DNA of 64,000 bases. It comes from Ulva prolifera. Its lineage: Eukaryota > Chlorophyta > Ulvophyceae > Ulvales > Ulvaceae. Position numbers and translations under genes: made by a program. Where the stretch lies: NCBI GenBank assembly GCA_023078555.1, contig CM041199.1:9181315-9245314 (forward strand), in the 5' to 3' direction. The first letter of the stretch is position 1. Each line of letters begins with the position of its first letter. Below, piece by piece: positions 1-64,000 of the stretch. The notes beneath the pieces were generated by a model. The model had not been told where the DNA came from and did no database searches. It saw nothing but the letters and a program-made list of their open reading frames with translations.

Positions 1-1636
1 GGGCACTATGTAGGAATGGTTCCATGTCCATGCAGTGTGTCGGGCAGTATGTTGGGCACTATGTTGGGCACTATGTAGGCATGGTTCCATGTCCGTGCAG
101 TATGTCGGGCACTACGTCGGGCACTATGTCGGCATGGTTCCATGTCCGTGCAGTATGTTGGGCACTATGTTTGGCACTATGTAGGCATGGTGCCATGTCC
201 GTGCAGCATGCCGGGCACTCTGTCGGGCACTATGTAGGCATGGTTCCATGTCCGTGCGGTATGTCGGGCACTATGTCGGGCACTATGTGGGCATGGTTCC
301 ATGTCCGTGCAGTGTGCCGGGCACTATGTCGGGCACTATGTAGGCATGGTCCCATGTCCGTGCGGTATGCCGGGCAATATGTCGGGCACTATGTAGGAAT
401 GGTTCCATGTCCATGCTGTGTGTCGGGCACTATTTCGGGCACTCTGTCGGGCACTATGTAGGCATGGTTCCATGTCCGTGCAGTATGTCGGGCACTATGC
501 TGGGCACTATGTGGGCATGGTTCCATGTCCGTGCAGTATGCCGGGCAATATGTCGGGCACTATGTAGGAATGGTTCCATGTCCATGCTGTGTGTCGGGCA
601 CTATTTCGGGCACTCTGTCGGGCGCTATGTCGGCATGGTTCCATGTCCATGCAGTATGCCGGGCACTATGCCAGGCACTATGTAGGCATGGTTCCATGTC
701 CGTGCAGTATGCCGGGCACTATGTCGGGCACTATGTCGGCATGGTTCCATGTCCGTGCAGTATGTCGGGCACTATGTCAAGCACTATGTAGGCATGGTTC
801 CATGTCCGTGCAGTATGCCGGGCACTATGTCGGGCACTATGTAGGCATGGTTCCATGTCCGTGCGGTATGTCGGGCACTATGTCAGGCACTATGTTGGGC
901 ACTATGTAGGCATGGTTCCATGTCCGCGCAGTATGCCGGGCACTATGTCGGGCACTATGTCGGGCACTATGTTGGGCACTATGTAGGCATGGTTCCATGT
1001 CCGTGCAGTATGCCGGGCACTATGTCGGGCACTATGTAGGAATGGTTCCATGTCCATGCAGTGTGTCGGGCAGTATGTTGGGCACTATGTTGGGCACTAT
1101 GTAGGCATGGTTCCATGTCCGTGCAGTATGTCGGGCACTACGTCGGGCACTATGTCGGCATGGTTCCATGTCCGTGCAGTATGTTGGGCACTATGTTTGG
1201 CACTATGTAGGCATGGTGCCATGTCCGTGCAGCATGCCGGGCACTCTGTCGGGCACTATGTAGGCATGGTTCCATGTCCGTGCGGTATGTCGGGCACTAT
1301 GTCGGGCACTATGTGGGCATGGTTCCATGTCCGTGCAGTGTGCCGGGCACTATGTCGGGCACTATGTAGGCATGGTCCCATGTCCGTGCGGTATGCCGGG
1401 CAATATGTCGGGCACTATGTAGGAATGGTTCCATGTCCATGCTGTGTGTCGGGCACTATTTCGGGCACTCTGTCGGGCACTATGTAGGCATGGTTCCATG
1501 TCCGTGCAGTATGTCGGGCACTATGCTGGGCACTATGTGGGCATGGTTCCATGTCCGTGCAGTATGCCGGGCAATATGTCGGGCACTATGTAGGAATGGT
1601 TCCATGTCCATGCTGTGTGTCGGGCACTATGTCGGG
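1..1636. repeat. Higher-order duplication, 1,026-bp spacing
   Basis: Bases 1 to about 609 recur at 1027 to about 1635 with the same order of unit variants, including the ACTATTTCGGGCACTCTG block. About 535 bp of it recur again from 4333 (offset 4,332). The first visible difference between the first two copies is ACTATTTCGGG near 601 against ACTATGTCGGG near 1627. Confidence 0.85.
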
Positions 1637-2299
1637 CACTATGTTGGGCACTATGTCGGCATGGTTCCATGTCCATGCAGTGTGTCGGGCAGTATGTTGG
1701 GCACTATGTTGGGCACTATGTAGGCATGGTTCCATGTCCGTGTAGTATGCCGGGCACTATGTCGGGCACTATGTAGGCATGGTTCCATGTCCATGCAGTG
1801 TGTCGGGCACTATGTCGGGCACTATGTCGGGCACTATGTTGGGCACTATGTAGGCATGTTTCCATGTCCGTGCAGTATGCCGGGCACTATGTCGGGCACT
1901 ATGTAGGAATGGTTCCATGTCCATGCAGTGTGTCGGGCAGTATGTTGGGCACTATGTTGGGCACTATGTAGGCATGGTTCCATGTCCGTGCAGTGTGTCG
2001 GGCACTATGTCGGGCACTATGTCGGCATGGTTCCATGTCCGTGAAGTATGTCGGGCACTATGTCGGGCACTATGTTGGGCACTATGTAGGCATGGTTCCA
2101 TGTCCGTGCAGTATGCCGGGCACTATGTCGGGCACTATGTAGGAATGGTTCCATGTCCATGCAGTATGCCGGGCACTATGTCGGGCACTATGTAGGAATG
2201 GTTCCATGTCCATGCAGTGTGTCGGGCAGTATGTTGGGCACTATGTCGGGCACTATGTAGGCATGGTCCCATGTCCGTGCGGTATGCCGGGCAATATGT

Positions 2300-5200: not shown

Positions 5201-8071
5201 GGCACTATGTAGGCATGGTTCCATGTCCGTGCAGTGTGTCGGGCACTACGTCGGGCACTATGTCGGCATGGTTCCATGTCCGTGTAGTATGCCGGGCACT
5301 ATGTCGGGCACTATGTAGGCATGGTTCCATGTCCATGCAGTGTGTCGGGCACTATGTCGGGCACTATGTCGGGCACTATGTTGGGCACTATGTAGGCATG
5401 TTTCCATGTCCGTGCAGTATGCCGGGCACTATGTCGGGCACTATGTAGGGCATGGTTCGATGTCCGTGCAGTATGCCGGGCACTATGTCGGGCACTATGT
5501 AGGAATGGTTCCATGTCCATGCTTTGTGTCGGGCACTATGTCGGGCACTATGTCGGGCACTATGTCGGGCATGGTTCCATGTCCGTGCAGTATGCCGGGC
5601 ACTATGTCGGGCACTATGTAGGAATGGTTCCATGTCCATGCTTTGTGTCGGGCACTATGTCGGGCACTATGTCGGGCACTATGTCGGGCACTATGTAGGC
5701 ATGGTTCCATGTCCGTGCAGTATGTCGGGCACTATGTTGGGCACTATGTGGGCATGGTTCCATGTCCGTGCAGTATGCCGGGCACTATGTCGGGCACTAT
5801 GTAGGCATGGTTCCATGTCCGTGTAGTATGCCGGGCACTATGTCGGGCACTATGTAGGCATGGTTCCATGTCCATGCAGTGTGTCGGGCACTATGTCGGG
5901 CACTATGTCGGGCACTATGTTGGGCACTATGTAGGCATGTTTCCATGTCCGTGCAGTATGCCGGGCACTATGTCGAGCACTATGTAGGAATGGTTCCATG
6001 TCCATGCAGTGTGTCGGGCAGTATGTTGGGCACTATGTTGGGCACTATGTAGGCATGGTTCCATGTCCGTGCAGTGTGTCGGGCACTATGTCGGGCACTA
6101 TGTCGGCATGGTTCCATGTCCGTGAAGTATGTCGGGCACTATGTCGGGCACTATGTTGGGCGCTATGTCGGCATGGTTCCATGTCCGTGCAGTATGCCGG
6201 GCACTATGTCGGGCACTATGTTGGGCGCTATGTCGGCATGGTTCCATGTCCGTGCAGTATGTCGGGCACTATGTTGGGCGCTATGTCGGCATGGTTCCAT
6301 GTCCTTGCAGTATGTCGGGCACTATGTTGGGCACTATGTCGGGCACTATGTTGGGCACTATGTAGGCATGGTTCCATGTCCGTGCAGTATGCCGGGCACT
6401 ATGTCGGGCACTATGTAGGAATGGTTCCATGTCCATGCAGTATGCCGGGCACTATGTCGGGCACTATGTAGGAATGGTTCCATGTCCATGCAGTGTGTCG
6501 GGCAGTATGTTGGGCACTATGTTGGGCACTATGTAGGCATGGTTCCATGTCCATGCAGTATGCCGGGCACTATGCCAGGCACTATGTAGGCATGGTTCCA
6601 TGTCCGTGCAGTATGCCGGGCACTATGTCGGGCACTATGTAGGCATGGTTCCATGTCCGTGCAGTATGCCGGGCACTATGTCGGGCACTATGTAGGCATG
6701 GTTCCATGTCCATGCAGTGTGTCGGGCACTATGTCGGGCACTATGTCGGGCACTATGTTGGGCACTATGTAGGCATGTTTCCATGTCCGTGCAGTATGCC
6801 GGGCACTATGTCGGGCACTATGTAGGGCATGGTTCCATGTCCGTGTAGTATGCCGGGCACTATGTCGGGCACTATGTACGCATGGTTCCATGTCCATGCA
6901 GTGTGTCGGGCACTATGTCGGGCACTATGTCGGGCACTATGTTGGGCACTATGTAGGAATGGTTCCATGTCCATGCAGTGTGTCGGGCAGTATGTTGGAC
7001 ACTATGTTGGGCACTATGTAGGCATGGTTCCATGTCCGTGCAGTGTGTCGGGCACTACGTCGGGCACTATGTCGGCATGGTTCCATGTCCGTGAAGTATG
7101 TCAGGCACTATGTTGGGCGCTATGTCGGCATGGTTCCATGTCCATGCAGTATGCCGGGCACTATGCCAGGCGCTATGTAGGCATGGTTCCATGTCCGTGC
7201 AGTATGCCGGGCACTATGTCGGGCACTATGTCGGCATGGTTCCATGTCCATGCAGTGTGTCGGGCAGTATGTTGGGCACTATGTTGGGCACTATGTAGGC
7301 ATGGTTCCATGTCCATGCAGTATGCCGGGCACTATGCCAGGCACTATGTAGGCATGGTTCCATGTCCGTGCAGTATGCCGGGCACTATGTCGGGCACTAT
7401 GTAGGCATGGTTCCATGTCCATGCAGTGTGTCGGGCAGTATGTTGGGCACTATGTTGGGCACTATGTAGGCATGGTTCCATGTCCGTGCAGTGTGTCGGG
7501 CACTACGTCGGGCACTATGTCGGCATGGTTCCATGTCCGTGTAGTATGCCGGGCACTATGTCGGGCACTATGTAGGCATGGTTCCATGTCCATGCAGTGT
7601 GTCGGGCACTATGTCGGGCACTATGTCGGGCACTATGTTGGGCACTATGTAGGCATGTTTCCATGTCCGTGCAGTATGCCGGGCACTATGTCGGGCACTA
7701 TGTAGGGCATGGTTCCATGTCCGTGCAGTATGCCGGGCACTATGTCGGGCACTATGTAGGAATGGTTCCATGTCCATGCTTTGTGTCGGGCACTATGTCG
7801 GGCACTATGTCGGGCACTATGTCGGGCATGGTTCCATGTCCGTGCAGTATGCCGGGCACTATGTCGGGCACTATGTAGGAATGGTTCCATGTCCATGCTT
7901 TGTGTCGGGCACTATGTCGGGCACTATGTCGGGCACTATGTAGGCATGGTTCCATGTCCGTGCAGTATGTCGGGCACTATGTTGGGCACTATGTGGGCAT
8001 GGTTCCATGTCCGTGCAGTATGCCGGGCACTATGTCGGGCACTATGTAGGCATGGTTCCATGTCCGTGTAG
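2300..8071. repeat. Higher-order repeat, three copies (2,415 and 2,257 bp apart)
   Basis: The block at 2743-3399 recurs at 5158-5826 and 7415-8071 with the same sequence of unit variants, including the rare TTTCCATG and CATGCTTTGTGTCGGG units. Copy two carries one extra 12-mer near 5685. The first two copies also share the upstream block at 2324-2506 and 4739-4921. Gain of a single 12-mer inside an otherwise matching copy shows that short-unit slippage and long-block duplication both act on the array. Confidence 0.85.
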
Positions 8072-10902: not shown

Positions 10903-11437
10903 GCATGGTTCCATGTCCGTGCAGTGTGTCGGGCAGTCTGTTGGGCACTATGTTGGGCACTATGTAGGCATGGTTTCATGTCCATGCACTATGTCGGGCA
11001 CTATGTTGGGCACAATGTAGGCATGGTTCCATGTCCGTGCAGTATGTCGGGCACTATGTCAAGCACTATGTAGGCATGGTTCCATGTCCGTGCAGTATGC
11101 CGGGCACTATGTCGGGCACTATGTCGGCATGGTTCCATGTCCGTGAAGTATGTCAGGCACTATGTTGGGCACTATGTCGGCATGGTTCCATGTCCGTGCA
11201 GTGTGTCGGGCACTATGTCGGGCACTATGTCGGGCACTATGTCGGCATGGTTCCATCTCCATGCAGTATGTCGGGCACTATGTCAAGCACTATGTAGGCA
11301 TGGTTCCATGTCCGTGCAGTATGCCGGGCACTATGTCGGGCACTATGTAGGCATGGTTCCATGTCCGTGCAGTATGCCGGGCACTATGTCGGGCACTATG
11401 TCGGGCACTATGTTGGGCACTATGTAGGCATGGTTCC

Positions 11438-14433
11438 ATGTCCGTGCAGTATGCCGGGCACTATGTCGGGCACTATGTAGGCATGGTTCCATGTCCGTGC
11501 AGTATGTCGGGCGGTATGTCGGGCACTATGACGGGCACTATGTTGGGCGCTATGTCGGCATGGTTCCATGTCCATGCAGTATGCCGGGCACTATGCCAGG
11601 CACTATGTAGGCATGGTTCCATGTCCGTGCAGTATGCCGGGCACTATGTCGGGCACTATGTCGGCATGGTTCCATGTCCGTGCAGTATGTCGGGCACTAT
11701 GTCAAGCACTATGTAGGCATGGTTCCATGTCCGTGCAGTATGCCGGGCACTATGTCGGGCACTATGTAGGCATGGTTCCATGTCCGTGCGGTATGTCGGG
11801 CACTATGTCAGGCACTATGTTGGGCACTATGTAGGCATGGTTCCATGTCCGCGCAGTATGCCGGGCACTATGTCGGGCACTATGTCGGGCACTATGTTGG
11901 GCACTATGTAGGCATGGTTCCATGTCCGAGCAGTATGCCGGGCACTATGTCGGGCACTATGTAGGAATGGTTCCATGTCCATGCAGTGTGTCGGGCAGTC
12001 TGTTGGGCACTATGTTGGGCACTATGTAGGCATGGTTCCATGTCCGTGCAGTGTGTCGGGCACGACGTCGGGCACTATGTCGGCATGGTTCCATGTCCGT
12101 GAAGTATGTCAGGCACTATGTTGGGCACTATGTCGGCAAGGTTCCATGTCCATGCAGTGTGTCGGGCAGTATGTTGGGCACTATGTTGGGCACTATGTAG
12201 GCATGGTTCCATGTCCGTGCAGTGTGTCGGGCACTACGTCGGCACTATGTCGGCATGGTTCCATGTCCATGCAGTATGCCGGGCACTATGCCAGGCACTA
12301 TGTAGGCATGGTTCCATGTCCGTGCAGTATGCCGGGAACTATGTCGGGCACTATGTAGGCATGGTTCCATGTCCATGCAGTGTGTCGGGCAGTCTGTTGG
12401 GCACTATGTTGGGCACTATGTAGGCATGGTTCCATGTCCGTGCAGTGTGTCGGGCACTACGTCGGCACTATGTCGGCATGGTTCCATGTCCATGCAGTAT
12501 GCCGGGCACTATGTTGGGCACTATGTAGGCATGGTTCCATGTCCGTGCAGTATGCCGGGCACTATGTCGGGCACTATGTAGGAATGGTTCCATGTCCATG
12601 CAGTGTGTCGGGCAGTATGTTGGGCACTATGTTGGGCACTATGTAGGCATGGTTCCATGTCCGTGCAGTGTGTCGGGCACTACGTCGGGCACTATGTCGG
12701 CATGGTTCCATGTCCGTGAAGTATGTCAGGCACTATGTCGGGCACTATGTAGGAATGGTTCCATGTCCATGCAGTGTGTCGGGCAGTATGTTGGGCACTA
12801 TGTTGGGCACTATGTAGGCATGGTTCCATGTCCGTGCAGTGTGTCGGGCACTACGTCGGGCACTATGTCGGCATGGTTCCATGTCCGTGAAGTATGTCAG
12901 GCACTATGTTGGGCACTATGTCGGCATGGTTCCATGTCCGTGCAGTGTGTCGGGCACTATGACGGGCTCGAAGTTGGGCACTATGTAGGCATGGTTCCAT
13001 GTCCGTGCAGTGTGTCGGGCACTACGTCGGCACTATGTCGGCATGGTTCCATGTCCGTGCAGTATGTCGGGCACTATGTCAAGCACTATGTAGGCATGGT
13101 TCCATGTCCGTGCAGTATGCCGGGAACTATGTCGGGCACTATGTAGGCATGGTTCCATGTCCGTGCGGTATGTCGGGCACTATGTCAGGCACTATGTTGG
13201 GCACTATGTAGGCATGGTTCCATGTCCGTGCAGTATGCCGGGCACTATGTCGGGCACTATGTAGGAATGGTTCCATGTCCGTGCAGTGTGTCGGGCAGTC
13301 TGTTGGGCACTATGTTGGGCACTATGTAGGCATGGTTCCATGTCCATGCACTATGTCGGGCACTATGTTGGGCACTATGTAGGCATGGTTCCATGTCCGT
13401 GCAGTATGCCGGGCACTATGTCGGGCACTATGTAGGAATGGTTCCATGTCCATGCAGTGTGTCGGGCAGTATGTTGGGCACTATGTTGGGCACTATGTAG
13501 GCATGGTTCCATGTCCGTGCAGTATGCCGGGCACTATGTCGGGCACTATGTAGGCATGGTTCCATGTCCGTGCAGTATGTCGGGCGGTATGTCGGGCACT
13601 ATGACGGGCACTATGTTGGGCGCTATGTCGGCATGGTTCCATGTCCATGCAGTATGCCGGGCACTATGCCAGGCACTATGTAGGCATGGTTCCATGTCCG
13701 TGCAGTATGCCGGGCACTATGTCGGGCACTATGTCGGCATGGTTCCATGTCCGTGCAGTATGTCGGGCACTATGTCAAGCACTATGTAGGCATGGTTCCA
13801 TGTCCGTGCAGTATGCCGGGCACTATGTCGGGCACTATGTAGGCATGGTTCCATGTCCGTGCGGTATGTCGGGCACTATGTCAGGCACTATGTTGGGCAC
13901 TATGTAGGCATGGTTCCATGTCCGCGCAGTATGCCGGGCACTATGTCGGGCACTATGTCGGGCACTATGTTGGGCACTATGTAGGCATGGTTCCATGTCC
14001 GAGCAGTATGCCGGGCACTATGTCGGGCACTATGTAGGAATGGTTCCATGTCCATGCAGTGTGTCGGGCAGTCTGTTGGGCACTATGTTGGGCACTATGT
14101 AGGCATGGTTCCATGTCCGTGCAGTGTGTCGGGCACGACGTCGGGCACTATGTCGGCATGGTTCCATGTCCGTGAAGTATGTCAGGCACTATGTTGGGCA
14201 CTATGTCGGCAAGGTTCCATGTCCATGCAGTGTGTCGGGCAGTATGTTGGGCACTATGTTGGGCACTATGTAGGCATGGTTCCATGTCCGTGCAGTGTGT
14301 CGGGCACTACGTCGGCACTATGTCGGCATGGTTCCATGTCCATGCAGTATGCCGGGCACTATGCCAGGCACTATGTAGGCATGGTTCCATGTCCGTGCAG
14401 TATGCCGGGCACTATGTCGGGCACTATGTAGGC
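11438..14433. repeat. Higher-order duplication, 2,073-bp spacing
   Basis: The segment from about 11438 to 12360 recurs from about 13511 to 14433. The shared markers are a GGGCGGTATG unit (11511 and 13584), a TCCGAGCAG unit and a GGCAAGGTTCC unit. The copies differ at a few single bases, such as GGGAACTATG near 12333 against GGGCACTATG near 14406. Confidence 0.85.
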
Positions 14434-16293
14434 ATGGTTCCATGTCCATGCAGTGTGTCGGGCAGTATGTTGGGCACTATGTTGGGCACTATGTAGGCAT
14501 GGTTCCATGTCCGTGCAGTGTGTCGGGCACGACGTCGGGCACTATGTCGGCATGGTTCCATGTCCGTGAAGTGTGTCGGGCACTATGTCGGGCACTATGT
14601 CGGGCACTATGTCGGCATGGTTCCATCTCCATGCAGTATGTCGGGCACTATGTCAAGCACTATGTAGGCATGGTTCCATGTCCGTGCAGTATGCCGGGCA
14701 CTATGTCGGGCACTATGTAGGCATGGTTCCATGTCCGTGCAGTATGCCGGGCACTATGTCGGGCACTATGTCGGGCACTATGTTGGGCACTATGTAGGCA
14801 TGGTTCCATGTCCGTGCAGTATGCCGGGCACTATGTCGGGCACTATGTAGGAATGGTTCCATGTCCATGCAGTGTGTCGGGCAGTATGTTGGGCACTATG
14901 TTGGGCACTATGTAGGCATGGTTCCATGTCCGTGCAGTGTGTCGGGCACTACGTCGGGCACTAAGTCGGCATGGTTCCATGTCCGTGAAGTATGTCAGGC
15001 ACTATGTCGGGCACTATGTAGGAATGGTTCCATGTCCATGCAGTGTGTCGGGCAGTATGTTGGGCACTATGTTGGGCACTATGTAGGCATGGTTCCATGT
15101 CCGTGCAGTGTGTCGGGCACTACGTCGGGCACTATGTCGGCATGGTTCCATGTCCGTGAAGTATGTCAGGCACTATGTTGGGCACTATGTAGGCATGGTT
15201 CCATGTCCATGCACTATGTCGGGCACTATGTTGGGCACTATGTAGGCATGGTTCCATGTCCGTGCAGTATGCCGGGCACTATGTCGGGCACTATGTAGGA
15301 ATGGTTCCATGTCCATGCAGTGTGTCGGGCAGTATGTTGGGCACTATGTTGGGCACTGTGTAGGCATGGTTCCATGTCCGTGCAGTGTGTCGGGCACTAC
15401 GTCGGGCACTATGTCGGCATGGTTCCATGTCCGTGAAGTATGTCAGGCACTATGTTGGGCACTATGTAGGCATGGTTCCATGTCCATGCACTATGTCGGG
15501 CACTATGTTGGGCACTATGTAGGCATGGTTCCATGTCCGTGCAGTATGCCGGGCACTATGTCGGGCACTATGTAGGAATGGTTCCATGTCCATGCAGTGT
15601 GTCGGGCAGTATGTTGGGCACTATGTTGGGCACTATGTAGGCATGGTTCCATGTCCATGCAGTATGTCGGGCACTATGTCAAGCACTATGTAGGCATGGT
15701 TCCATGTCCGTGCAGTATGCCGGGCACTATGTCGGGCACTATGTAGGCATGGTTCCATGTCCGTGCAGTATGCCGGGCACTATGTCGGGCACTATGTCGG
15801 GCACTATGTTGGGCACTATGTAGGCATGGTTCCATGTCCGTGCAGTATGCCGGGCACTATGTCGGGCACTATGTAGGAATGGTTCCATGTCCATGCAGTG
15901 TGTCGGGCAGTATGTTGGGCACTATGTTGGGCACTACGTAGGCATGGTTCCATGTCCGTGCAGTGTGTCGGGCACTACGTCGGGCACTATGTAGGCATGG
16001 TTCCATGTCCGTGCAGTATGTTGGGCACTATGTTGGGCACTATGTAGGCATGGTTCCATGTCCATGCAGTATGTCGGGCACTATGTCAAGCACTATGTAG
16101 GCATGGTTCCATGTCCGTGCAGTATGCCGGGCACTATGTCGGGCACTATGTAGGCATGGTTCCATGTCCGTGCAGTATGCCGGGCACTATGTCGGGCACT
16201 ATGTCGGGCACTATGTTGGGCACTATGTAGGCATGGTTCCATGTCCGTGCAGTATGCCGGGCACTATGTCGGGCACTATGTAGGAATGGTTCC

Positions 16294-19200
16294 ATGTCCA
16301 TGCAGTGTGTCGGGCAGTATGTTGGGCACTATGTTGGGCACTACGTAGGCATGGTTCCATGTCCGTGCAGTGTGTCGGGCACTACGTCGGGCACTATGTC
16401 GGCATGGTTCCATGTCCGTGAAGTATGTCAGGCACTATGTCGGGCACTATGTAGGAATGGTTCCATGTCCATGCAGTGTGTCGGGCAGTATGTTGGGCAC
16501 TATGTTGGGCTCTATGTAGGCATGGTTCCATGTCCGTGCAGTGTGTCGGGCACTACGTCGGGCACTATGTCGGCATGGTTCCATGTCCGTGAAGTATGTC
16601 AGGCACTATGTTGGGCACTATGTCGGCATGGTTCCATGTCCGTGCAGTGTGTCGGGCACTATGACGGGCTCTAAGTTGGGCGCTATGTCGGCATGGTTCC
16701 ATGTCCATGCAGTATGCCGGGCACTATGCCAGGCGCTATGTAGGCATGGTTCCATGTCCGTGCAGTATGCCGGGCACTATGTCGGGCACTATGTCGGCAT
16801 GGTTCCATGTCCGTGCAGTATGTCGGGCACTATGTCAAGCACTATGTAGGCATGGTTCCATGTCCGTGCAGTATGCCGGGCACTATGTCGGGCACTATGT
16901 AGGCATGGTTCCATGTCCGTGCGGTATGTCGGGCACTATGTCAGGCACTATGTTGGGCACTATGTAGGCATGGTTCCATGTCCGTGCAGCATGCCGGGCA
17001 CTATGTCGGGCACTATGTAGGAATGGTTCCATGTCCGTGCAGTGTGTCGGGCAGTCTGTTGGGCACTATGTTGGGCACTATGTAGGCATGGTTCCATGTC
17101 CATGCACTATGTCGGGCACTATGTTGGGCACTATGTAGGCATGGTTCCATGTCCGTGCAGTATGCCGGGCACTATGTCGGGCACTATGTAGGAATGGTTC
17201 CATGTCCATGCAGTGTGTCGGGCAGTATGTTGGGCACTATGTTGGGCACTATGTAGGCATGGTTCCATGTCCGTGCAGTATGCCGGGCACTATGTCGGGC
17301 ACTATGTAGGAATGGTTCCATGTCCGTGCAGTGTGTCGGGCAGTCTGTTGGGCACTATGTTGGGCACTATGTAGGCATGTTTCCATGTCCGTGCAGTGTG
17401 TCGGGCACTACGTCGGCACTATGTCGGCATGGTTCCATGTCCATGCAGTATGCCGGGCACTATGCCAGGCACTATGTAGGCATGGTTCCATGTCCGTGCA
17501 TCGTGTCGGGCACTATGTCAGGCACTATGTTGGGCACTATGTAGGCATGGTTCCATGTCCGCGCAGTATGCCGGGCACTATGTCGGGCACTATGTAGGAA
17601 TGGTTCCATGTCCGTGCAGTGTGTCGGGTAGTCTGTTGGGCACTATGTTGGGCACTATGTAGGCATGTTTCCATGTCCGTGCAGTATGCCGGGCACTATG
17701 CCAGGCGCTATGTAGGCATGGTTCCATGTCCGTGCAGTATGCCGGGCACTATGTCGGGCACTATGTCGGCATGGTTCCATGTCCGTGCAGTATGTCGGGC
17801 ACTATGTCAAGCACTATGTAGGCATGGTTCCATGTCCGTGCAGTATGCCGGGCACTATGTCGGGCACTATGTAGGCATGGTTCCATGTCCGTGCGGTATG
17901 TCGGGCACTATGTCAGGCACTATGTTGGGCACTATGTAGGCATGGTTCCATGTCCGTGCAGCATGCCGGGCACTATGTCGGGCACTATGTAGGAATGGTT
18001 CCATGTCCGTGCAGTGTGTCGGGCAGTCTGTTGGGCACTATGTTGGGCACTATGTAGGCATGGTTCCATGTCCATGCACTATGTCGGGCACTATGTTGGG
18101 CACTATGTAGGCATGGTTCCATGTCCGTGCAGTATGCCGGGCACTATGTCGGGCACTATGTAGGAATGGTTCCATGTCCATGCAGTGTGTCGGGCAGTAT
18201 GTTGGGCACTATGTTGGGCACTACGTAGGCATGGTTCCATGTCCGTGCAGTGTGTCGGGCACTACGTCGGGCACTATGTCGGCATGGTTCCATGTCCGTG
18301 AAGTATGTCAGGCACTATGTCGGGCACTATGTAGGAATGGTTCCATGTCCATGCAGTGTGTCGGGCAGTATGTTGGGCACTATGTTGGGCACTATGTAGG
18401 CATGGTTCCATGTCCGTGCAGTGTGTCGGGCACTACGTCGGGCACTATGTCGGCATGGTTCCATGTCCGTGAAGTATGTCAGGCACTATGTTGGGCACTA
18501 TGTCGGCATGGTTCCATGTCCGTGCAGTGTGTCGGGCACTATGACGGGCTCTAAGTTGGGCGCTATGTTGGCATGGTTCCATGTCCATGCAGTATGCCGG
18601 GCACTATGCCAGGCGCTATGTAGGCATGGTTCCATGTCCGTGCAGTATGCCGGGCACTATGTCGGGCACTATGTCGGCATGGTTCCATGTCCGTGCAGTA
18701 TGTCGGGCACTATGTCAAGCACTATGTAGGCATGGTTCCATGTCCGTGCAGTATGCCGGGCACTATGTCGGGCACTATGTAGGCATGGTTCCATGTCCGT
18801 GCGGTATGTCGGGCACTATGTCAGGCACTATGTTGGGCACTATGTAGGCATGGTTCCATGTCCGTGCAGCATGCCGGGCACTATGTCGGGCACTATGTAG
18901 GAATGGTTCCATGTCCGTGCAGTGTGTCGGGCAGTCTGTTGGGCACTATGTTGGGCACTATGTAGGCATGGTTCCATGTCCATGCACTATGTCGGGCACT
19001 ATGTTGGGCACTATGTAGGCATGGTTCCATGTCCGTGCAGTATGCCGGGCACTATGTCGGGCACTATGTAGGAATGGTTCCATGTCCATGCAGTGTGTCG
19101 GGCAGTATGTTGGGCACTATGTTGGGCACTATGTAGGCATGGTTCCATGTCCGTGCAGTATGCCGGGCACTATGTCGGGCACTATGTAGGAATGGTTCCA

Positions 19201-54690: not shown

Positions 54691-55060
54691 GTTGGGCACT
54701 ATGTAGGCATGGTTCCATGTCCGTGCAGAGTGTCGGGCACGACGTCGGGCACTATGTCGGCATGGTTCCATGTCCGTGAAGTATGTCAGGCACTATGTTG
54801 GGCACTATGTCGGCATGGTTCCATGTCCGTGCAGTGTGTCGGGCACTATGTCGGGCACTATGTCGGGCACTATGTCGGCATGGTTCCATCTCCATGCAGT
54901 ATGTCGGGCACTATGTCCAGCACTATGTAGGCATGGTTCCATGTCCGTGCAGTATGCCGGGCACTATGTCGGGCACTATGTAGGCATGGTTCCATGTCCG
55001 TGCAGTATGCCGGGCACTATGTCGGGCACTATGTCGGGCACTATGTTGGGCACTATGTAG
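53691..55060. repeat. Higher-order duplication, 961-bp spacing
   Basis: The block at about 53745-54050 (GCAGAGTGTCGGG, CACGACG, TTCCATCTCC, GTCCAGCAC) recurs at about 54706-55010. The right copy leads directly into the unit that the transposon interrupts, so this pair supplies a nearby uninterrupted version of the target at about 54114. Confidence 0.8.
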
Positions 55061-55086
55061 GCATGGTTCCATGTCCGTGCAGTATG

Positions 55087-55089
55087 CCG
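55087..55089. repeat. Target site duplication, left (CCG)
   Basis: The three bases CCG just before CACTACAAG equal the three bases after the right terminus (62683-62685). In the satellite this trinucleotide normally occurs once, in GTATGCCGGGCACTATG, so the second copy arose on insertion. Confidence 0.95.
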
Positions 55090-55114
55090 CACTACAAGAA
55101 ACCTGACTGGCCCA
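55090..55114 (+). repeat. Terminal inverted repeat, left
   Basis: It reads CACTACAAGAAACCTGAC, then T, then GGCCCA. It is the reverse complement of the right end except for the base after the first 18 (T here, C at the right end). Similarity stops after GGCCCA. Confidence 0.97.
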
Positions 55115-55240
55115 GACTTACAGAAGGGGCACATTGTGAGGCGCACTTGGTGCAGTTGGATGAGTCCGAGTGTAGCTCTGGGGGCACATTTGCCTGAACT
55201 CTGGGGCTGACATTGGCAAGGGGCTGAAGCCGGCTGCGGT
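55115..55240. other. Left subterminal region with GGGGCAC motifs
   Basis: GGGGCACATTG lies at 55126-55136 and GGGGCACATT at 55181-55190, followed by a TGGGGCTGACATTGGCA stretch at 55202-55218. CACTA elements usually carry clustered short motifs within ~200-300 bp of each end that bind the element's accessory DNA-binding protein. These motifs are candidates for that role by position only. No gene is seen here. Confidence 0.5.
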
Positions 55241-55993
55241 CGTGAGTGGCGTTATTCTGTACAGAAACAAGATCCATTCAATACATCAAGTACATGAAAC
55301 GTAACAGGTCCGTTAGTGGTGGCAAGCGGCGACTCTGGCGTGCAGCGATCGCTTCGGATCATACAGAGCCTAGCTCCGTGGGGCAATAACTATATGGTTA
55401 GCCGGTCTACGCGCAATGCTTATAACGCATAAATGATGCGAAAGCAGTGGGCGATGTAGGTAGTTGCGTAAGTATATGCAGCGTTGTGTGGTGTACGGGA
55501 TTTCGGCACTGGACGGCTGGATGCATGCTTGGAAGTCGCCGAAGTGGGTGGTGTTTGTCGTGGCGGGATCGAGCTGGAAGTCTTCCACCTATGCAGTAAA
55601 TCGTGGCAAACGTGTCAACCAAACATTGGTGTAATTTGAGTTCCTTGTGACTATAAGATGGTGCTTCAGGGCATAGAAGTAGGCAGAAGGAGGCTGTGGC
55701 ACATCACCATGATTCTGCTCCTATGTGAGCACAGAAGTGACCCTTACCACCAAGGGGCTGGAAGTGCCCTTGGCCCAATGGCAGTTTCTCGGGTATCAGG
55801 GCCAATTATTATAAGCTGGTGGCAGAATCTGCCACTGATGCAATTAGGGTCACATTCCTCTGCATTGCTAGGAGGAGATCATGGTGGTGCTTCCAGAGCT
55901 CGAAAACATGTAGCATGCAGCCGTACAGTACTGATAAGCGACCTACTGTTCTCATATGGCTTGTGAAGGTTACAATCTGTAGGCTGGAGGCAG
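55241..55993. other. Element interior, no recognisable gene
   Basis: This is unique sequence between the left subterminal region and the minus-strand gene-like region. Short open frames occur on both strands (the longest about 100 codons on the plus strand at 55658-55966), but none has a motif, a supporting start context or continuity with neighbours. A 3' exon or untranslated region of the minus-strand gene could lie here. I found no clear polyadenylation signal for that strand. Confidence 0.5.
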
Positions 55994-56380
55994 CTAATAC
56001 CCGTCCCTCATTCCTATGACACCTGGTCGCCATTGCACAAGCCACTGCAGGGTGAGAGGGGGCTGCACTATCACAACAACACATGAATCAGCAAGCAACA
56101 CAAAACGGTCCAAAACAAAATCTTCAAATGTGCTGCAGCCTCTCTCTGGAGCTGTGGTCTTGTTCTGCACCTCTGCATCTAGCCTCAATACTTCTTCGAC
56201 CTCTGCCGCCCTGACGTCCTCTTCCTCTGCATGAAATGCCAAATCAGAACTCATTGCTGCTGGCATATAGTTGTGTGCAACAGAGCTGGACCGCCGTAGC
56301 AGAAAGATGTGGCCAGGGAAGGATACACCAACAAATGCCATAATTGCAATGGAAACCAGAAATGCGACATAGAGAGTGCC
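55994..56380 (-). CDS. Possible exon: membrane segment plus acidic stretch, unrecognised
   Basis: The frame is open on the minus strand from just after a TGA at 56381-56383 to the stop at 55994. The first ~26 residues are strongly hydrophobic (core LYVAFLVSIAIMAFVGV, then GHIFLL) and are followed by RR, as in a single membrane-spanning helix with a positive flank. After a short linker comes an acidic run (FHAEEEDVRAAEVEEVL, then LDAEVQNKT) typical of coding sequence. The last ~40 residues are low quality and may be intron or untranslated. An AG before the GCACTCTC at about 56380 could be the acceptor. It is in a different frame from the coding-like block upstream at 56736-58067, so a joining intron would be needed if both belong to one gene. 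I cannot assign a family or function. Confidence 0.3.
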   Translation of the reverse strand, partial: GTLYVAFLVSIAIMAFVGVSFPGHIFLLRRSSSVAHNYMPAAMSSDLAFHAEEEDVRAAEVEEVLRLDAEVQNKTTAPERGCSTFEDFVLDRFVLLADSCVVVIVQPPLTLQWLVQWRPGVIGMRDGY

Positions 56381-56735
56381 TCACGACTACGTACAGCATC
56401 TATTGACAGTGAGCAAACCTGGATATGGTTAAAACTGCGAATTCAATGCGAGCAAGCATGCTCATTGCGCTCCCCGACTGCCTTATGCTGCAAGGCAGGG
56501 AGTGGGGACATGCAACGTTTGGTGACACACCTTGGCACATGGCAAGCTTAGCTGTGGGTCTGCGTTGCACTGTTCTGTGTTGGATTCTATGTCAGCACCT
56601 GCACATCGAAGCATGTCATCTTGGGTACAAACATGGCGCCACGTGCACTAGGCTGCTGCTAGGGCAAGAACAGCACACACGCCGCAGTGGCCGTACCCAT
56701 GGCAGCTAGACTGTATGCTGTTGATACAGCTGCTG

Positions 56736-58067
56736 TCAAATGAAGCCTTGAACTGCACTCCGAAGGTGCCCGGGAGGGGGCCCCCTCCTGTCAACTTGGA
56801 TGCACTTGGGTGTGTACCGAGTGCTTCTTTCTCTCCAATAGACAGTAAAAAGTCCATCAGACAAGCTGCTCTGGATCTCGAGCGCATGTTCTCTAGAGAT
56901 CTGTGGCCCTACATAGGCATATTCGTAATCAGAGGACATAATCGTGACATTGGCGAAGGATACCGACATGGAAAGGGCAAAGATGTCATACTTGGACAGC
57001 ACTTTCAAATGCAGCTTTTTCGTCTGATAATCAAGATGCTTTGTGGCCAAATCGCGCCGCATTGCCTCGCCATATGAGGCGAGCGCCAGCAACTTCTGGA
57101 AGCCAACGATGGCGTCTTCTTCAATGTTCTGCAAGGAGTGGCACCTGACATTTGCAATCCATTGCATCCTAAAGTTGATTGTTCAGAGATCACCTGAGTA
57201 CTGCTCATGTAAATTCTGTGGAATACAGCGAAGGCAGACTAGGGTGAGGACCTCGATAAACAGTTCAGAGCTCAGCTTGGCCCGCAGCCCAAGCCTGGCA
57301 ACAGGCATTCCCGGTAGCCACCATCGGTCTTCTGGTCCCCAGAATGTTACTGCCTTTGGCAGAAACTTGACCTTGACGCGATATTCGGGATCGGCCTTCA
57401 ATGCTGCATTGAGAGCTACCTTGGACAGGCTTGATGGCATGTACGCTATAGTTGCCAGCCCAGCTTCCCTCCTTGCTGGATTCTGCACGTTGAATATGGG
57501 GCACTGTTAACCATTCATTACGAGAGACCCAACGGTTAGACGGCGCGGAATGCGACTGTCGACCACTCGCGAGTGCGCGCCCAATATTGAACGTGAAACG
57601 CGCTTGGTGCAAATGCCAGCTTTAAAGTGGCTGCGTACCTCGTACTTGGCCTGCTGCGCATCGACCTTTGGTCTGCTTTTGCCGCGACCTTTCTTCTTCG
57701 TCGTCAGACGTAATTCGTAGTGGCCCTAAATCTGGGTAGTGTTCTGCAGTCGCGTGAGCGCCTCGTGCACCGGCTCGGCTGCCTCGAGTCTCATGGCGTA
57801 GATTCGTTCCATGATCTTCCGAAGACTAAATTGTTTCTTCTCCAAGCTGCCTTCCACGCTGAACTCCTTCGACCCTGCCCTGCCGACATCGCTCAATATA
57901 GTCAAGATTACTTCCTCAGCGTGGCTGCGGCAATCTGCTGGCACCCCTAGTGGCTTGCTCGTATACGTATCGGCTGTCACGAGGAGTTTGCCATCTGAGT
58001 AAATGTCAATCACCTTAATAGACAGTGTATACGGCCGGAGCCCGGGAGCGTCTTGGCCGGCTTGCAT
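56736..58067 (-). pseudogene. Gene-like minus-strand frame with in-frame stops, possibly 3n introns; unrecognised
   Basis: An ATG at 58067 in a strong eukaryotic context (GCCACCATGC) opens a frame that stays protein-like for 443 codons without any frameshift. It is broken only by TAG (57726-57728), TAA (57507-57509) and TGA (57183-57185), and ends at TGA 56736-56738. Coding-like stretches include KVIDIYSDGKLLVTADTY, VTFWGPEDRWWLPGMPVARL and LHLKVLSKYDIFALSMSVSF. Two stops fall inside possible GT-AG introns whose lengths are multiples of three. One is 57504-57638 (135 nt, donor GAG/GTACGC, branch-like CTAAC, acceptor AACAG). The other is 57129-57251 (123 nt, weak donor GTCCTC, acceptor CTCCTTGCAG). 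The TAG has no convincing intron: a 45-nt one (57726-57770) is too short, while a 267-nt one (57504-57770) would remove both TAG and TAA. It is either a spliced gene carried by the transposon or a decayed one. No transposase motif and no family is recognised. Confidence 0.4.
56773..56788. other. Perfect 16-bp palindrome
   Basis: GGAGGGGGCCCCCTCC reads the same on both strands. It lies near the 3' end of the minus-strand gene-like frame, where it encodes a proline-rich turn (RRGPPPG). It could be a protein-binding site, a hairpin or chance in GC-rich sequence. Confidence 0.6.
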
Positions 58068-59007
58068 GGTGGCAAATCTGGGAGTAACTCACACTCGACG
58101 AGTAGACGGTCAAACCACAATGCTGCGGAGATGCGCTCGCTTGTGACCGGATTCCGTCGCCAGATTCAGTGACGTTCGCTGGGCGTGACAAAGTTCTCCA
58201 GGCGCGTTGCCGCCGCGTGCGTGTGGCGTAGGGGGAGGATACCCCACAGCGATGGCGTAGGCAGCACCAGACCCCAGCTCCGCCATCCAGTCGCGACGGT
58301 CCATGTCTGCCGTCACATCATCGTGCTGAAGTCAAAGGTCAACGTCGACGCCATCATAAAGATGGCACGAGCGGTATGGTGGCTGCTCCTTTTATGTGTC
58401 TGTGATTGCTGCCCTTTAGCACTCGACAATGACACGACCTGTGTCTCGCCACAGCTAACCTGAAAAAGTCAAGAGGCTGTAATTATAATGTATTGTGGCT
58501 GTGTTTGCAGGCGCCAGGTGCATCCGAGCATGATATAAATCTGAAATGGTGAAAACCCAACTCTCTGTCCATTCGCCGAGGGGCAAAATCGATGCCATTT
58601 CCCATTCGTCAGGTCTCAAATTAAGAGGGAAGCGGGGAGTAAGGTTGCCTCCACGAATATTAGTTTTTCAAGCATTGGGGACATCAGCCTTGCTGATGCT
58701 TACCTCGAAAGCTAGCAAGTCAGAAATGTATGTGGGAATTAAATCAGCTTGACGCGGTGTTTCACACCAAATCATACTTCGATAAAGTTTTCTAGCTCAG
58801 AATAAAGAGTCGTGGATGTAAACTGCATCAAATCCAAACGTGTCGCGACTCGTGACACTGATCTGTACAGATTTGCCTTTTCTACAGGCATGGACTCCTC
58901 TCCACTGTCCACCTGCCATACGCAGAGTTCACTTTCATGTCCACAAACCACACGTCCCACCATTCCCTGGGTGCAAATGTACATGTTACGCATGGCAGCT
59001 GTTACAA
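58068..59007. other. Element interior, no confident gene
   Basis: This is unique sequence between the minus-strand frame and the minisatellite. The minus strand is open at 58110-58316 in the same frame as the downstream block, with a coding-like start (DWMAELGSGAAYAIAVGY) that could be a 5' exon. A strong donor-like GTGAGT lies at about 58096, shortly upstream of the ATG at 58067. The plus strand has AATAAA at 58801-58806, a possible polyadenylation signal with no convincing gene in front of it. Confidence 0.4.
58389..58396 (-). promoter_or_regulatory. Weak TATA-like box upstream of the minus-strand frame
   Basis: On the minus strand the sequence reads CACATAAAAGGAGCAG, a TATA-like CATAAAAG about 320 bp upstream of the ATG at 58067. 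A start site ~30 bp downstream would leave several short upstream ATGs before 58067, which argues for an upstream exon or against this box. Position and motif are the only support. Confidence 0.2.
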
Positions 59008-61205
59008 GCATGCTGGATTTTTTGAGAAGGAGCTGAGGCAGCCACTGGCAAACCTGAGCTGCATATTCATTCATCAACTCACATGTGCAGTGAACTGTGC
59101 AGTTTGAACTCCAGCAGCTCAAGGTTGGGTTTGGTGCTGGCTGCTTGCGGCGCACGTGCATGCTGATTTCCCGCTTCTGTGTACATGCTGGATTTTTTTT
59201 GAAGAAGCTGAGGCTGCCACTGGCACACCTGAGCTGCAAATCCATTCGGCAACTCACATGTGCAGTGAACTGTGCAGTTTGAGCTCCAGCAGCCCAAGGC
59301 TGGGTTTGGTGCTGGCTGCATACGTCGCACGTGCATGCTGGTTTCCCGCTTCTGTGAACATGCTGATTTTTTTGTGAAGGAGCTGAGGCAGCCACTGACA
59401 CACCTGAGCTGCAAATCCATTCGGCAACTCACATGTGCAGTGAACTGTGCAGTTTGAACTCCAGCAGCTCAAGGTTGGGTTTGGTGCTGGCTGCATACGT
59501 CGCACGTGCATGCTGGTTTCCCGCTTCTGTGAGCATGCTGAATTTTTTGTGAAGGAGCTGAGGCTGCCACTGGCACACCTGAGCTGCAAATCCATTCGGC
59601 AACTCACATGTGCAGTGAACTGTGCAGTTTGAGCTCCAGCAGCCCAAGGCTGGGTTGGGTGCTGGCTGCATACGTCGCACGTGCATGCTGGTTTCCCGCT
59701 TCTGTGAGCATGCTGACTTTTTTGTGAAGGAGCTGAGGCTGCCACTGGCGCGCCTGAGCTGCATATTCATTCATCAACTCACATGTGCAGTGAACTGTGC
59801 AGTTTGAGCTCCAGCAGCCCAAGGCTGGGTTGGGTGCTGGCTGCATACGTCGCACGTGCATGCTGGTTTCCCGCTTCTGTGAGCATGCTGAATTTTTTGT
59901 GAAGGAGCTGAGGCAGCCACTGGCACACCTGAGCTGCAAATCCATTCGGCAACTCACATGTGCAGTGAACTGTGCAGTTTGAGCTCCAGCAGCCCAAGGC
60001 TGGGTTGGGTGCTGGCTGCATACGTCGCACGTGCATGCTGGTTTCCCGCTCTGTGAGCATGCTGAATTTTTTTTGTGAAGGAGCTGAGGCTGCCACTGGC
60101 ACACCTGAGCTGCAAATCCATTCGGCAACTCACATGTGCAGTGAACTGTGCAGTTTGAGCTCCAGCAGCCCAAGGCTGGGTTGGGTGCTGGCTGCATACG
60201 TCGCACGTGCATGCTGGTTTCCCGCTCTGTGAGCATGCTGAATTTTTTGTGAAGGAGCTGAGGCTGCCACTGGCACACCTGAGCTGCAAATCCATTCGGC
60301 AACTCACATGTGCAGTGAACTGTGCAGTTTGAGCTCCAGCAGCCCAAGGCTGGGTTTGGTGCTGGCTGCATACGTCGCACGTGCATGCTGGTTTCCCGCT
60401 TCTGTGAGCATGCTGACTTTTTTGTGAAGGAGCTGAGGCTGCCACTGGCGCGCCTGAGCTGCATATTCATTCATCAACTCACATGTGCAGTGAACTGTGC
60501 AGTTTGAGCTCCAGCAGCCCAAGGCTGGGTTGGGTGCTGGCTGCATACGTCGCACGTGCATGCTGGTTTCCCGCTTCTGTGAGCATGCTGAATTTTTTGT
60601 GAAGGAGCTGAGGCAGCCACTGGCACACCTGAGCTGCAAATCCATTCGGCAACTCACATGTGCAGTGAACTGTGCAGTTTGAGCTCCAGCAGCCCAAGGC
60701 TGGGTTGGGTGCTGGCTGCATACGTCGCACGTGCATGCTGGTTTCCCGCTCTGTGAGCATGCTGAATTTTTTGTGAAGGAGCTGAGGCTGCCACTGGCAC
60801 ACCTGAGCTGCAAATCCATTCGGCAACTCACATGTGCAGTGAACTGTGCAGTTTGAGCTCCAGCAGCCCAAGGCTGGGTTGGGTGCTGGCTGCATACGTC
60901 GCACGTGCATGCTGGTTTCCCGCTTCTGTGAGCATGCTGACTTTTTTGTGAAGGAGCTGAGGCTGCCACTGGCGCGCCTGAGCTGCATATTCATTCATCA
61001 ACTCACATGTGCAGTGAACTGTGCAGTTTGAGCTCCAGCAGCCCAAGGCTGGGTTGGGTGCTGGCTGCATACGTCGCACGTGCATGCTGGTTTCCCGCTT
61101 CTGTGAGCATGCTGAATTTTTTGTGAAGGAGCTGAGGCAGCCACTGGCACACCTGAGCTGCAAATCCATTCGGCAACTCACATGTGCAGTGAACTGTGCA
61201 GTTTT
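59008..61205. repeat. Internal minisatellite, 175-bp unit, about 12.5 copies
   Basis: The anchor AACTCACATGTGCAGTGAAC occurs at 59076, 59251, 59426, 59601, 59776, 59951, 60127, 60301, 60476, 60651, 60825, 61000 and 61175, that is every 174-176 bp. The 1-bp changes come from T-run length and CGCTTCTG/CGCTCTG. Two unit types alternate: B (GCATATTCATTCATC before the anchor) and A (GCAAATCCATTCGGC). The order is B A A A, B A A A, B A A, B A, so a 700-bp B-A-A-A super-unit is present. Every complete unit contains CACATGTG and GCACGTGC palindromes. Long open frames across it (up to 288 codons on the minus strand) arise because the unit lacks stops in several frames. I regard them as non-coding. Internal tandem repeats are common in CACTA elements. 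Confidence 0.96.
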
Positions 61206-62499
61206 TCATTCCCACTTTGAAGCTGTCAACCTTCGGTTGAAAAGTTACGACCATGTAACACCATAGGTACTTGTGCTGATAATGCGGCTTACCCGAGCTG
61301 GACGAAGTTTATGAGTCGAGACAGCAACACGTGATTTCTATAGAGGTCCATGCTTATCGCACAGATCACCTACAACCAACAGGAATGAAGCACCTACATG
61401 AGCAGCCAGCACATGGTGTTCAAAGCATTTTGCTGTATCACTTGGACACGACACGAGTTCCATGCCCTAGCTAGACATAGCATCTCCACACATCAAGAAT
61501 TCAGCGTGGATACTCACAGATAATACTTGCCAGCAGCCTACCTCATCGTTAATGGGCTATCCACTGCACCGTAAACTACACCTTCAGTAGCTTGTGATCA
61601 AGTAGCTTCTACTGCTGCCATAATCATGATGTCTTGGGCTAGGTGGAGTGTAGCAGCAAACTGCCGCTGCAACACTGATCACGATACACCGAAGGAATAC
61701 GTCAGTGGAGCATCATCACCTGCATGTCAGTGTAAGAATCGTTTTCATTGTTTACACCTCAAATGGCGTTTTGCTACAGGCGCCATCATGGAACACCAGT
61801 CACGAGCAACTGTGGCGCAACACACAAGCCAAGGCAGATGAAGCATGAGCATGTAGCCTACCGGAACGTACTACATTGCTTCGGATATTGGCGTCTGGCA
61901 GCCACTGGGGAAGCACGCTGGTCACTAATTGATTCACTCGCAGCATCGCGAAATCCACGCCGACTAATCAAGTCCGTTCTCCGCGCATGAAGAAGACTAG
62001 GGGCACATAAGCCATCCGTTGGATCACCTGACTGAGCACACGCACCGGTGGGAACGTGATCACAGTGCAGGCCTGCGCGAGTCGATAATCATGTCGAGCC
62101 CAAAGCCGCATCCGCGTTAGCTGCATGCATCGGCTACAAACGCTGCTGGCTCCCTCCGGGCGGCCGCAAGGATCGCCACGAAAGCCGACATCAAGCAAAG
62201 CATGACCAGGATTTACGCACTCATGAATCTGTACAGCCGACCCATCACACCACCCACGGGACACCTGCTCAATGTCCGTGCGTCGATGTACCAAACCGCC
62301 AGAAACAGTCATCAGCACCCACGGTGCACAGTTCGCACATTCAATCGATTATGTGCCTTATCTGTCAAGATAGTAATATTCAATGCGACCCGATTGTCCA
62401 TAGCAGGGCATCGCACCGTTTCACCAATGTGCCATGGCATGGTGGCACAAATACGGCCCCTTATGGAGCAGCTTGGTGAATGCCCAAGCAAACACCCCC
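61206..62499. other. Element interior, no recognisable gene
   Basis: This is unique sequence between the minisatellite and the right subterminal region. Open frames of about 116 codons (minus, 61968-62318) and 130 codons (plus, 62202-62594) overlap each other and show no recognisable motif, start context or repeat of known families. The plus one runs into the subterminal motifs. I see no RNA gene or transposase remnant. Confidence 0.5.
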
Positions 62500-62657
62500 T
62501 CATCGTGGGGCCCATATGTGCCCCTGACTTTCAAAGTGACCCTGGAGCCGGAACCCCCCCCAGCTGCCGAATCCTGAAACCGCCCCTGAACTAGCATGGG
62601 GCACTACAGCCCTCTGCCAACGAGCCCCCAAGTCATAAGGGGCACCTTGTCCTTCCT
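62500..62657. other. Right subterminal region with GGGGCAC motifs
   Basis: GTGCCCC occurs at 62518-62524, GGGGCACTACA at 62598-62608 and GGGGCACCTTG at 62639-62649. The stretch at 62607-62630, read on the minus strand, resembles the left TGGGGCTGACATTGGCA segment (TGGGGGCTCGTTGGCA), so part of it forms a diverged extension of the inverted ends. The motifs occur in both orientations, as expected for CACTA subterminal binding sites. Confidence 0.5.
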
Positions 62658-62682
62658 TGGGCCGGTCAGGTTTCTTGTAGTG
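62658..62682 (-). repeat. Terminal inverted repeat, right
   Basis: On the minus strand it reads CACTACAAGAAACCTGAC, then C, then GGCCCA, matching the left end at 24 of 25 bases. The outermost base pairs with the left terminal C, and CCG follows directly. Confidence 0.97.
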
Positions 62683-62685
62683 CCG
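62683..62685. repeat. Target site duplication, right (CCG)
   Basis: This is the partner of 55087-55089. It is followed by GGCACTATGTCGGGC, the exact continuation of the unit interrupted on the left. Confidence 0.95.
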
Positions 62686-64000
62686 GGCACTATGTCGGGC
62701 ACTATGTAGGAATGGTTCCATGTCCATGCAGTGTGTCGGGCAGTATGTTGGGCACTATGTTGGGCACTATGTAGGCATGGTTCCATGTCCGTGCAGTGTG
62801 TCGGGCACTACGTCGGGCACTATGTCGGCATGGTTCCATGTCCGTGAAGTATGTCAGGCACTATGTTGGGCACTATGTCGGCATGGTTCCATGTCCGTGC
62901 AGTGTGTCGGGCACTATGTCGGGCACTATGTAGGCATGGTTCCATGTCCGTGCAGTATGTAGGGCACTATGTTGGGCACTATGTTGGGCACTATGTAGGC
63001 ATGGTTCCATGTCTGTGCAGTATGCCGGGCACTATGTCGGGCACTATGTAGGAATGGTTCCATGTCCGTGAAGTATGTCAGGCACTATGTTGGGCACTAT
63101 GTCGGCATGGTTCCATGTCCGTGCACTGTGTCGGGCACTATGACGGGCACAATGTTGGGCGCTATGTCGGCATGGTTCCATGTCCATGCAGTATGCCGGG
63201 CACTATGCCAGGCGCTATGTAGGCATGGTTCCATGTCCGTGCAGTATGCCGGGCACTATGTCGGGCACTATGTAGGCATGGTTCCATGTCCGTGCGGTAT
63301 GTCGGGCACTATGTCAGGCACTATGTTGGGCACTATGTAGGCATGGTTCCATGTCTGTGCAGTATGCCGGGCACTATGTCGGGCACTATGTAGGAATGGT
63401 TCCATGTCCGTGCAGTGTGTCGGGCAGTCTGTTGGGCACTATGTTGGGCACTATGTAGGCATGGTTCCATGTCCATGCACTATGTCGGGCACTATGTTGG
63501 GCACAATGTAGGCATGGTTCCATGTCCGTGCAGTATGCCGGGCACTATGTCGGGCACTATGTAGGAATGGTTCCATGTCCATGCAGTGTGTCGGGCAGTA
63601 TGTTGGGCACTATGTTGGGCACTATGTAGGCATGGTTCCATGTCCGTGCAGTATGCCGGGCACTATGTCGGGCACTATGTAGGAATGGTTCCATGTCCGT
63701 GCAGTGTGTCGGGCAGTCTGTTGGGCACTATGTTGGGCACTATGTAGGCATGGTTCCATGTCCGTGCAGTGTGTCGGGCACTACGTCGGCACTATGTCGG
63801 CATGGTTCCATGTCCATGCAGTATGCCGGGCACTATGCCAGGCACTATGTAGGCATGGTTCCATGTCCGTGCAGTGTGTCGGGCACGACGTCGGGCACTA
63901 TGTCGGCATGGTTCCATGTCCGTGAAGTATGTCAGGCACTATGTTGGGCACTATGTCGGCATGGTTCCATGTCCGTGTAGTGTGTCAGGCACTATGTCGG
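62683..64000. repeat. Satellite array, 53-bp family (right block)
   Basis: The same satellite resumes immediately after the transposon and runs to the window end. The first ~375 bp match the local family left of the insertion, including the GTATGTAGGGCAC variant at about 62957 that otherwise marks 43-50 kb. From about 63.4 kb the order of variants instead matches the 21.2-21.9 kb and 23.3-23.9 kb segments, including the CACTATG-after-CCATG unit, the GGGCACAATGTAGG unit and the 11-base 12-mer CTACGTCGGCACTATG. Domain families therefore recur about 40 kb apart. Confidence 0.97.

Follow-up and report, generated by a model that had tools for sequence, protein, structure and literature searches.

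We identified a complete CACTA element of 7593 bp, from 55090 to 62682, in a 64,000-nucleotide stretch of the Ulva prolifera genome (the window). This copy (E1) is a member of a typical non-autonomous deletion-derivative family for which a gene-bearing sister (E5) was found elsewhere in the genome. We consider it very probable that E1, as a non-autonomous CACTA (En/Spm-type) transposon, arose by deletion from a larger two-gene element and was moved in trans. The features of E1 are summarized in Table 1.

Table 1. Features of the window copy and its insertion site (positions in the window).
Feature	Position	Strand	Basis or remark
5' target-site duplication, CCG	55087..55089		read from sequence
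Left terminal inverted repeat, CACTACAAGAAACCTGACTGGCCCA	55090..55114	+	24 of 25 bases match the right repeat
Left subterminal region with GGGGCAC motifs	55115..55414		motif count
Deletion junction A, common GCT	56705..56707		E5 about 2.5 kb longer here, including minus-strand frames of 378 and 257 aa
Remnant of the element's second gene	56739..57506	-	protein search of the genome
Internal tandem array, 175-bp unit, 12.6 copies	59007..61204		repeat analysis
Deletion junction B, 7-bp microhomology GCAGTTT	61198..61204		array joined to the 3' end of the transposase gene
Last 13 codons of the transposase gene and stop (QFFIPTLKLSTFG, then stop)	61199..61240	+	comparison with E5
3' region and right subterminal region	61241..62657		comparison of copies
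Right terminal inverted repeat, end ...CTTGTAGTG	62658..62682	-	one mismatch in 25 to the left repeat
3' target-site duplication, CCG	62683..62685		read from sequence

CACTA elements are defined by the termini CACTA/G...T/CAGTG within short inverted repeats of <50 bp, according to the available text of PMC10741241. The termini of E1 are CACTACAAGAAA...TTTCTTGTAGTG, which are of this type, and its right terminus reads CACTACAAGAAACCTGACCGGCCCA in inverted orientation. The same ends are flanked by perfect 3-bp target-site duplications, as expected for the superfamily, in all 12 two-ended copies of the family. The duplications are twelve different trinucleotides (CCG, CCC, CGG, CAT, TAT, ATG, TAC, ACA, GTC, CAA, GGC and TCT), and a chance origin of the E1 ends is thus excluded. 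Because the termini and the duplications agree, the membership of the element in CACTA is secure. The first-pass annotation had made the same assignment, and the borders and the CCG duplication that it gave are correct to the base.

It had also proposed that joining the flanks restores a satellite unit. This was confirmed, as the 40-base join of the E1 flanks has 171 exact occurrences in the window and the 70-base join has 44. The remainder of the window is satellite with a 53-bp period and higher periods of 118 and 171 bp, and E1 lies inside this satellite on C4. The satellite itself (window 1-55089 and 62683-64000) is possibly confined to a single locus. A 39-bp exact variant of its unit, the one variant searched, occurs 75 times, always within C4:9180118-9255351 and always on one strand. 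The unit includes the palindrome CATGG-TT-CCATG.

The motif GGGGCAC was found five times in the two 300-bp subterminal regions (600 bp) of E1, against twice in the 6943-bp interior. None of 5000 simulations reached five, but the motif was picked from the same data, and a motif-free test gave 63 of 1000 shuffles. The Rfam search of window 55000-62800 returned no family at the gathering score.

The genome (88.9 Mb in 44 contigs) was searched with each end of E1, as the first-pass annotation had suggested, and the resulting copy counts are lower bounds. Chlorophyll a/b-binding genes are also present in this genome, but their matches did not tell green algae apart from land plants. With the right end of E1, 14 matches reached 99-100% and a further 15 only 69-75%; with the left end, 12 matches were nearly complete (94-100%), and two others are fragments of a single broken copy. 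Together they define at least 12 two-ended copies (E1-E6, E8-E11, E13 and E14) of 5831-17,887 bp, with identical borders in all 12, and three one-ended copies, namely E7 and E12 (right end) and the broken left end at C2:10.58 Mb. The 15 weaker matches of the right end belong to related families. A CACTACAAGAAA-type terminus, with no more than one mismatch, is seen at 13 of these loci (L023-L037), L031 and L033 being the exceptions.

The two-ended copies have in common a left arm of about 3.9 kb and a right arm of about 1.48 kb, which are colinear but for minor gaps and for inserts carried by E5 and E8. Over the left arm, E1 differs from E6, E2 and E8 at only 5, 6 and 9 of 3917 sites, respectively, and eight further aligned copies (E5 aside) are 0.9-1.9% from E1. 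The 5-9 differences indicate that the family moved recently, and this recent spread implies mobilisation.

Family copies are clustered at C2:6.11-6.28 Mb, C2:10.30-10.58 Mb and C1:3.76-3.90 Mb. Among 15 insertion places, six pairs lie within 250 kb, against a random mean of 0.56, and 2 of 20,000 simulations reach six. Local hopping was considered as the cause and set aside, because neighbours are not consistently mutual closest relatives; a regional preference is as likely. Two copies have particular surroundings or contents. E8 (L047/L048) contains a nested insertion of about 4.06 kb (element positions about 3297-7355). A fragment of a reverse transcriptase lies on the minus strand of this insertion (RVT_1, E 6.8e-5, sub-threshold), which looks like a decayed LTR retrotransposon. 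E12 (L052/L053, C8:6109372-6126939) adjoins an assembly N close to the end of contig C8; beyond this N lies a different satellite of about 62 bp, which also comes after the E12 right end.

The annotation had suggested that an autonomous partner may lie elsewhere, and E5 (C2:10302845-10320731, 17.9 kb) is a fuller relative with open transposase exons. It carries two extra segments that are absent from the other copies, at element positions 1653-4140 and 11181-16396. The right segment holds the transposase exons on the plus strand, and their frame ends in ...STRDEQFFIPTLKLSTFG and a stop, while in E1 the residues QFFIPTLKLSTFG and the stop follow directly after the array. Apart from E5, every copy spanning junctions A and B has them (12 of 12), and E3, E9 and E11 show a nearby substitution. 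Since both junctions are common to all spanning copies, each deletion most likely arose a single time and preceded amplification. The family thus has the form of deletion derivatives, with both ends kept and the transposase lost internally, as seen from the common junctions and the retained transposase tail. With 5.8% divergence from E1 (227 of 3903 sites), E5 is the parent's sister and not the parent itself.

The direction of change could in principle be reversed. The short form would then be ancestral and E5 would be a composite, into which the transposase and second-gene segments were inserted later. E5 does have a nested insertion, as its array contains a short retrotransposon-like unit, and the 3-bp overlap at junction A could be an insertion duplication; junction A taken singly may indeed reflect an insertion into E5 instead of a deletion. 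However, E5 and the related element L061 on C3 contain further exons of the transposase gene from which the short copies retain the last 13 codons and the stop, the divergent two-gene order recurs at eight related places, and a segment running from the middle of the array to 13 codons before a stop is unlike a transposon insertion. We therefore regard the composite origin of E5 as highly improbable and retain internal deletion as the explanation.

The first-pass annotation had seen no transposase-like frame in E1. Our six-frame hmmscan agrees for the parts scanned (55090-59006 and 61030-62682), where none of the 12 frames matched a Pfam family at E<=0.1. Neither of the two outcomes that the annotation had named as refuting was seen, as these parts gave no transposase-domain hit and all 12 two-ended copies agree in their borders. 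For E5, the plus-strand frames align in pieces with L061, the right end of which is also of CACTA type. The transposase gene appears to be split by introns, and its exon borders are putative. At least 120 matches to one exon were found in the genome, the exon itself included and with several per locus (119 of 267 candidates were scored); among the matches listed, 96 of the 120 are free of internal stops and 24 are not. The long open frame L060 (1821 aa) was rejected as a candidate, as it is partly a run of N. In four exon pieces compared between E5 and L061, dN was 0.08-0.33 and dS was 1.6-2.6, which is near saturation. Such low dN against near-saturated dS indicates that the transposase protein has been under selection.

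DUF4218 was the top Pfam match in all five C-terminal pieces (E 0.066, 0.1, 0.0069, 0.0044 and 0.0021), below the curated cut-off in each case, and the matches cover overlapping stretches of the profile. In plant CACTA proteins DUF4218 accompanies Transposase_21, as described in the available text of PMC8978399. Unrelated families score alike in the same scans, such as Prenylcys_lyase (0.011, in an 86-aa piece) and DUF6248 (0.0048, in a second-gene frame). The other transposase exons scanned with Pfam gave no transposase family, Transposase_21 included, and no Pfam match to the transposase exceeded the curated cut-off. A genome search with Transposase_21 (PF02992) had no match, but its controls were silent too, hence this search is uninformative. 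The weak DUF4218 matches suggest that the transposase probably belongs to the Tnp2 type.

The minus strand of E1 carries a gene-like frame at 56736-58088. A conventional gene was considered here and rejected: the frame has no Pfam match, and the question was resolved by a protein search of the genome. For the part of the frame at 56739-57506, this search found nine non-family relatives with identities of 34-42%. A transposase match in divergent orientation is present at a distance of 4.6-22 kb from eight of them (seven within 7.3 kb and one at 22 kb), where the two match lists were compared by eye and the transposase list comprises the matches listed only. The inner frame is thus most likely the element's own second gene. 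The ninth relative (C4:6507736-6507993) has no transposase nearby among the matches listed, and is possibly another deletion derivative or a host gene. The second-gene frame contains one TGA in E1, and all 13 family matches covering this place, E5 included, also count one TGA; its exact place was seen in E1 and E5. This TGA may therefore lie in an intron, and the remaining frame may still be partly coding.

The 378-aa minus-strand frame in the left segment of E5 has a weak relative at C4:3147084 (E 1.7e-5, 31% identity), in the same neighbourhood as a transposase/second-gene pair. The span of the related element there was inferred from the gene positions and the right end. Its left end was not found in the 2001 bases searched, and a terminus-pattern search for that related family gave nine matches, none of which is its left end.

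These results bear on the suggestion of the first-pass annotation that E1 belongs to a cargo-carrying family, that is, a Pack-CACTA-like element with a captured host gene fragment. The gene-like frame itself speaks for such a capture, and so does some codon-position bias between E1 and E5, in which the 99 substitutions over element positions 1619-3250 are distributed as 43, 21 and 35 by position modulo 3. Against it, the 12 frames outside the array contain no Pfam family, the left interior of E1 as DNA matches only copies of the same family in the genome, and eight of the nine outside protein relatives are near transposase matches. A host gene or gene fragment, which characterizes Pack-CACTA elements, was not found inside E1. 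The cargo reading is largely refuted, and we assign it a very small probability. The annotation had noted that E1 is larger than most deletion derivatives. This size is explained by the long retained arms and about 2.2 kb of 175-bp repeats, in a family whose gene-bearing copy reaches 17.9 kb. Size alone is no sign of cargo.

The 175-bp array is the main source of length variation among the copies, with about 2.6-54 units. We counted 12.6 units in E1, 23.6 in E2, 5.6 in E3, 24.6 in E4, 53.6 in E6, 5.6 in the one-ended E7, 19.6 in E8, 14.6 in E9, 2.6 in E10, 14.6 in E11, 35.6 in E13 and 9.6 in E14; the array of E5 is in two parts of 2.2 and 23.1 units. The 238 units in 13 arrays comprise 105 distinct sequences. 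The nearest neighbour of a unit lies in its own array in 204 of the 238 cases (ties scored as own), in its own subgroup in 23 and in another subgroup in 11, and mean unit identity is 96.3% within subgroups and 94.7% between them. A search of the genome with two units gave 148 matches (a lower bound), all but one in family copies with an end or arm; the sole exception is a remnant at C2:10558975-10559188, beside the old broken copy. Inside the array of E5 (L041/L042, element positions about 6825-7141) lies a unit of about 315 bp, which has direct repeats of about 90 bp (TGTCATGATG...CCTGACA) at both ends and GGCAC on each side. We take this unit to resemble a miniature terminal-repeat retrotransposon.

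The length differences could be assembly artefacts, in which repeats were collapsed or expanded. Near-identical tandem units are error-prone in assembly, and E12, as mentioned above, adjoins an N. However, the order of units differs among copies in patterned blocks with private variants. The array of E2 corresponds to an E1-like array in which 11 units have been duplicated. When each unit i was compared with unit i+11, 9 of the 12 pairs showed no difference (the remainder being 99.4, 97.1 and 92.0% identical), whereas adjacent units average 95.2%. The arrays would also be shorter than typical long reads, which counts if long reads were used. We consider an artefact unlikely. Block duplications together with near-identical arms indicate that the array gains and loses blocks far faster than the arms collect substitutions.

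Our guess is that the array changes during post-excision repair, and ordinary unequal exchange may be an alternative cause. A broader reading, which we offer tentatively and hold to be rather doubtful as a whole, is that transposition itself drives the array: excision would be repaired from a sister copy across the array, so that each jump would tend to add or drop blocks; the family would produce long tandem arrays as it propagates itself; and the array would also serve as a spacer, possibly a promoter or protein-binding region, between two divergent genes. If true, the spacer role would explain why some of the array is retained in every spanning copy.

The history that fits these data can be outlined as follows. 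In the simplest reading, the parent would have had two genes pointing apart with the 175-bp array between them. One deletion would have removed part of the second gene, and another would have begun within the array and reached the 13th-last transposase codon. Both probably happened once, in a founder copy. The bases common to the breakpoints, GCT and GCAGTTT, would be consistent with end-joining or interrupted gap repair as the cause. As the founder would have retained both ends, transposase made elsewhere could excise it and paste it in trans with 3-bp duplications, and one such paste would have reached the C4 satellite. In E1, part of the second gene, the array and the final 13 transposase codons would thereby have been kept.

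Neither this family nor an algal CACTA element with an internal array was found described in the titles and abstract openings of the papers listed. Its interest lies in the deletion series with a gene-bearing sister and in the fast block-wise change of the array. The series is one of deletion derivatives in a green-lineage genome, with exact borders, common breakpoints showing microhomology, and array-length changes among copies only 5-9 sites apart over 3.9 kb. One small genome thereby allows a test of whether satellite DNA is seeded and enlarged by DNA transposons.

CACTA (En/Spm) elements, for example maize En/Spm and Chenopodium Jozin, have CACTA...TAGTG termini, short inverted repeats, 3-bp duplications, large size and two open frames in the full element, and their internally deleted copies are mobilised in trans (PMC10741241 and PMC8978399, in their available text). 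As far as these texts describe the group, the family here has the same termini, short inverted repeats, 3-bp duplications and large size, and it likewise has two open frames in the fuller element together with internally deleted copies. It differs in that its transposase shows only sub-threshold similarity to DUF4218, with no Transposase_21 match, and in that the genes of E5 appear to be divergent with a repeat array between them.

The closest precedent in the accessible parts of these sources is a group of CACTA elements with 171-bp internal arrays in Chenopodium quinoa. There, a 16.5-kb CACTA element, present in several copies, contains 32.5 tandem copies of an internal 171-bp unit, with the array placed past the coding sequence and close to the 3' end (PMC8978399, available text). 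The unit length and array size are similar to those found here. In contrast, the array of E5 lies between two gene regions, and in our family the deletion derivatives carry the array.

The birth of a satellite from a CACTA interior has been described for Chenopodium Jozin/CficCl-61-40, and Arabidopsis Atenspm is cited in the same context (PMC7320549, available text). Going by that text, both cases tie a CACTA interior to tandem arrays and involve deletion derivatives; unlike the Chenopodium satellite, the 175-bp array was not seen outside its family among the 148 matches (a lower bound), the one match apart from copies with an end or arm being a remnant by an old broken copy. As the quinoa 171-bp arrays and the Chenopodium satellite birth are already published in these sources, the family described here is a new family of an already known kind.
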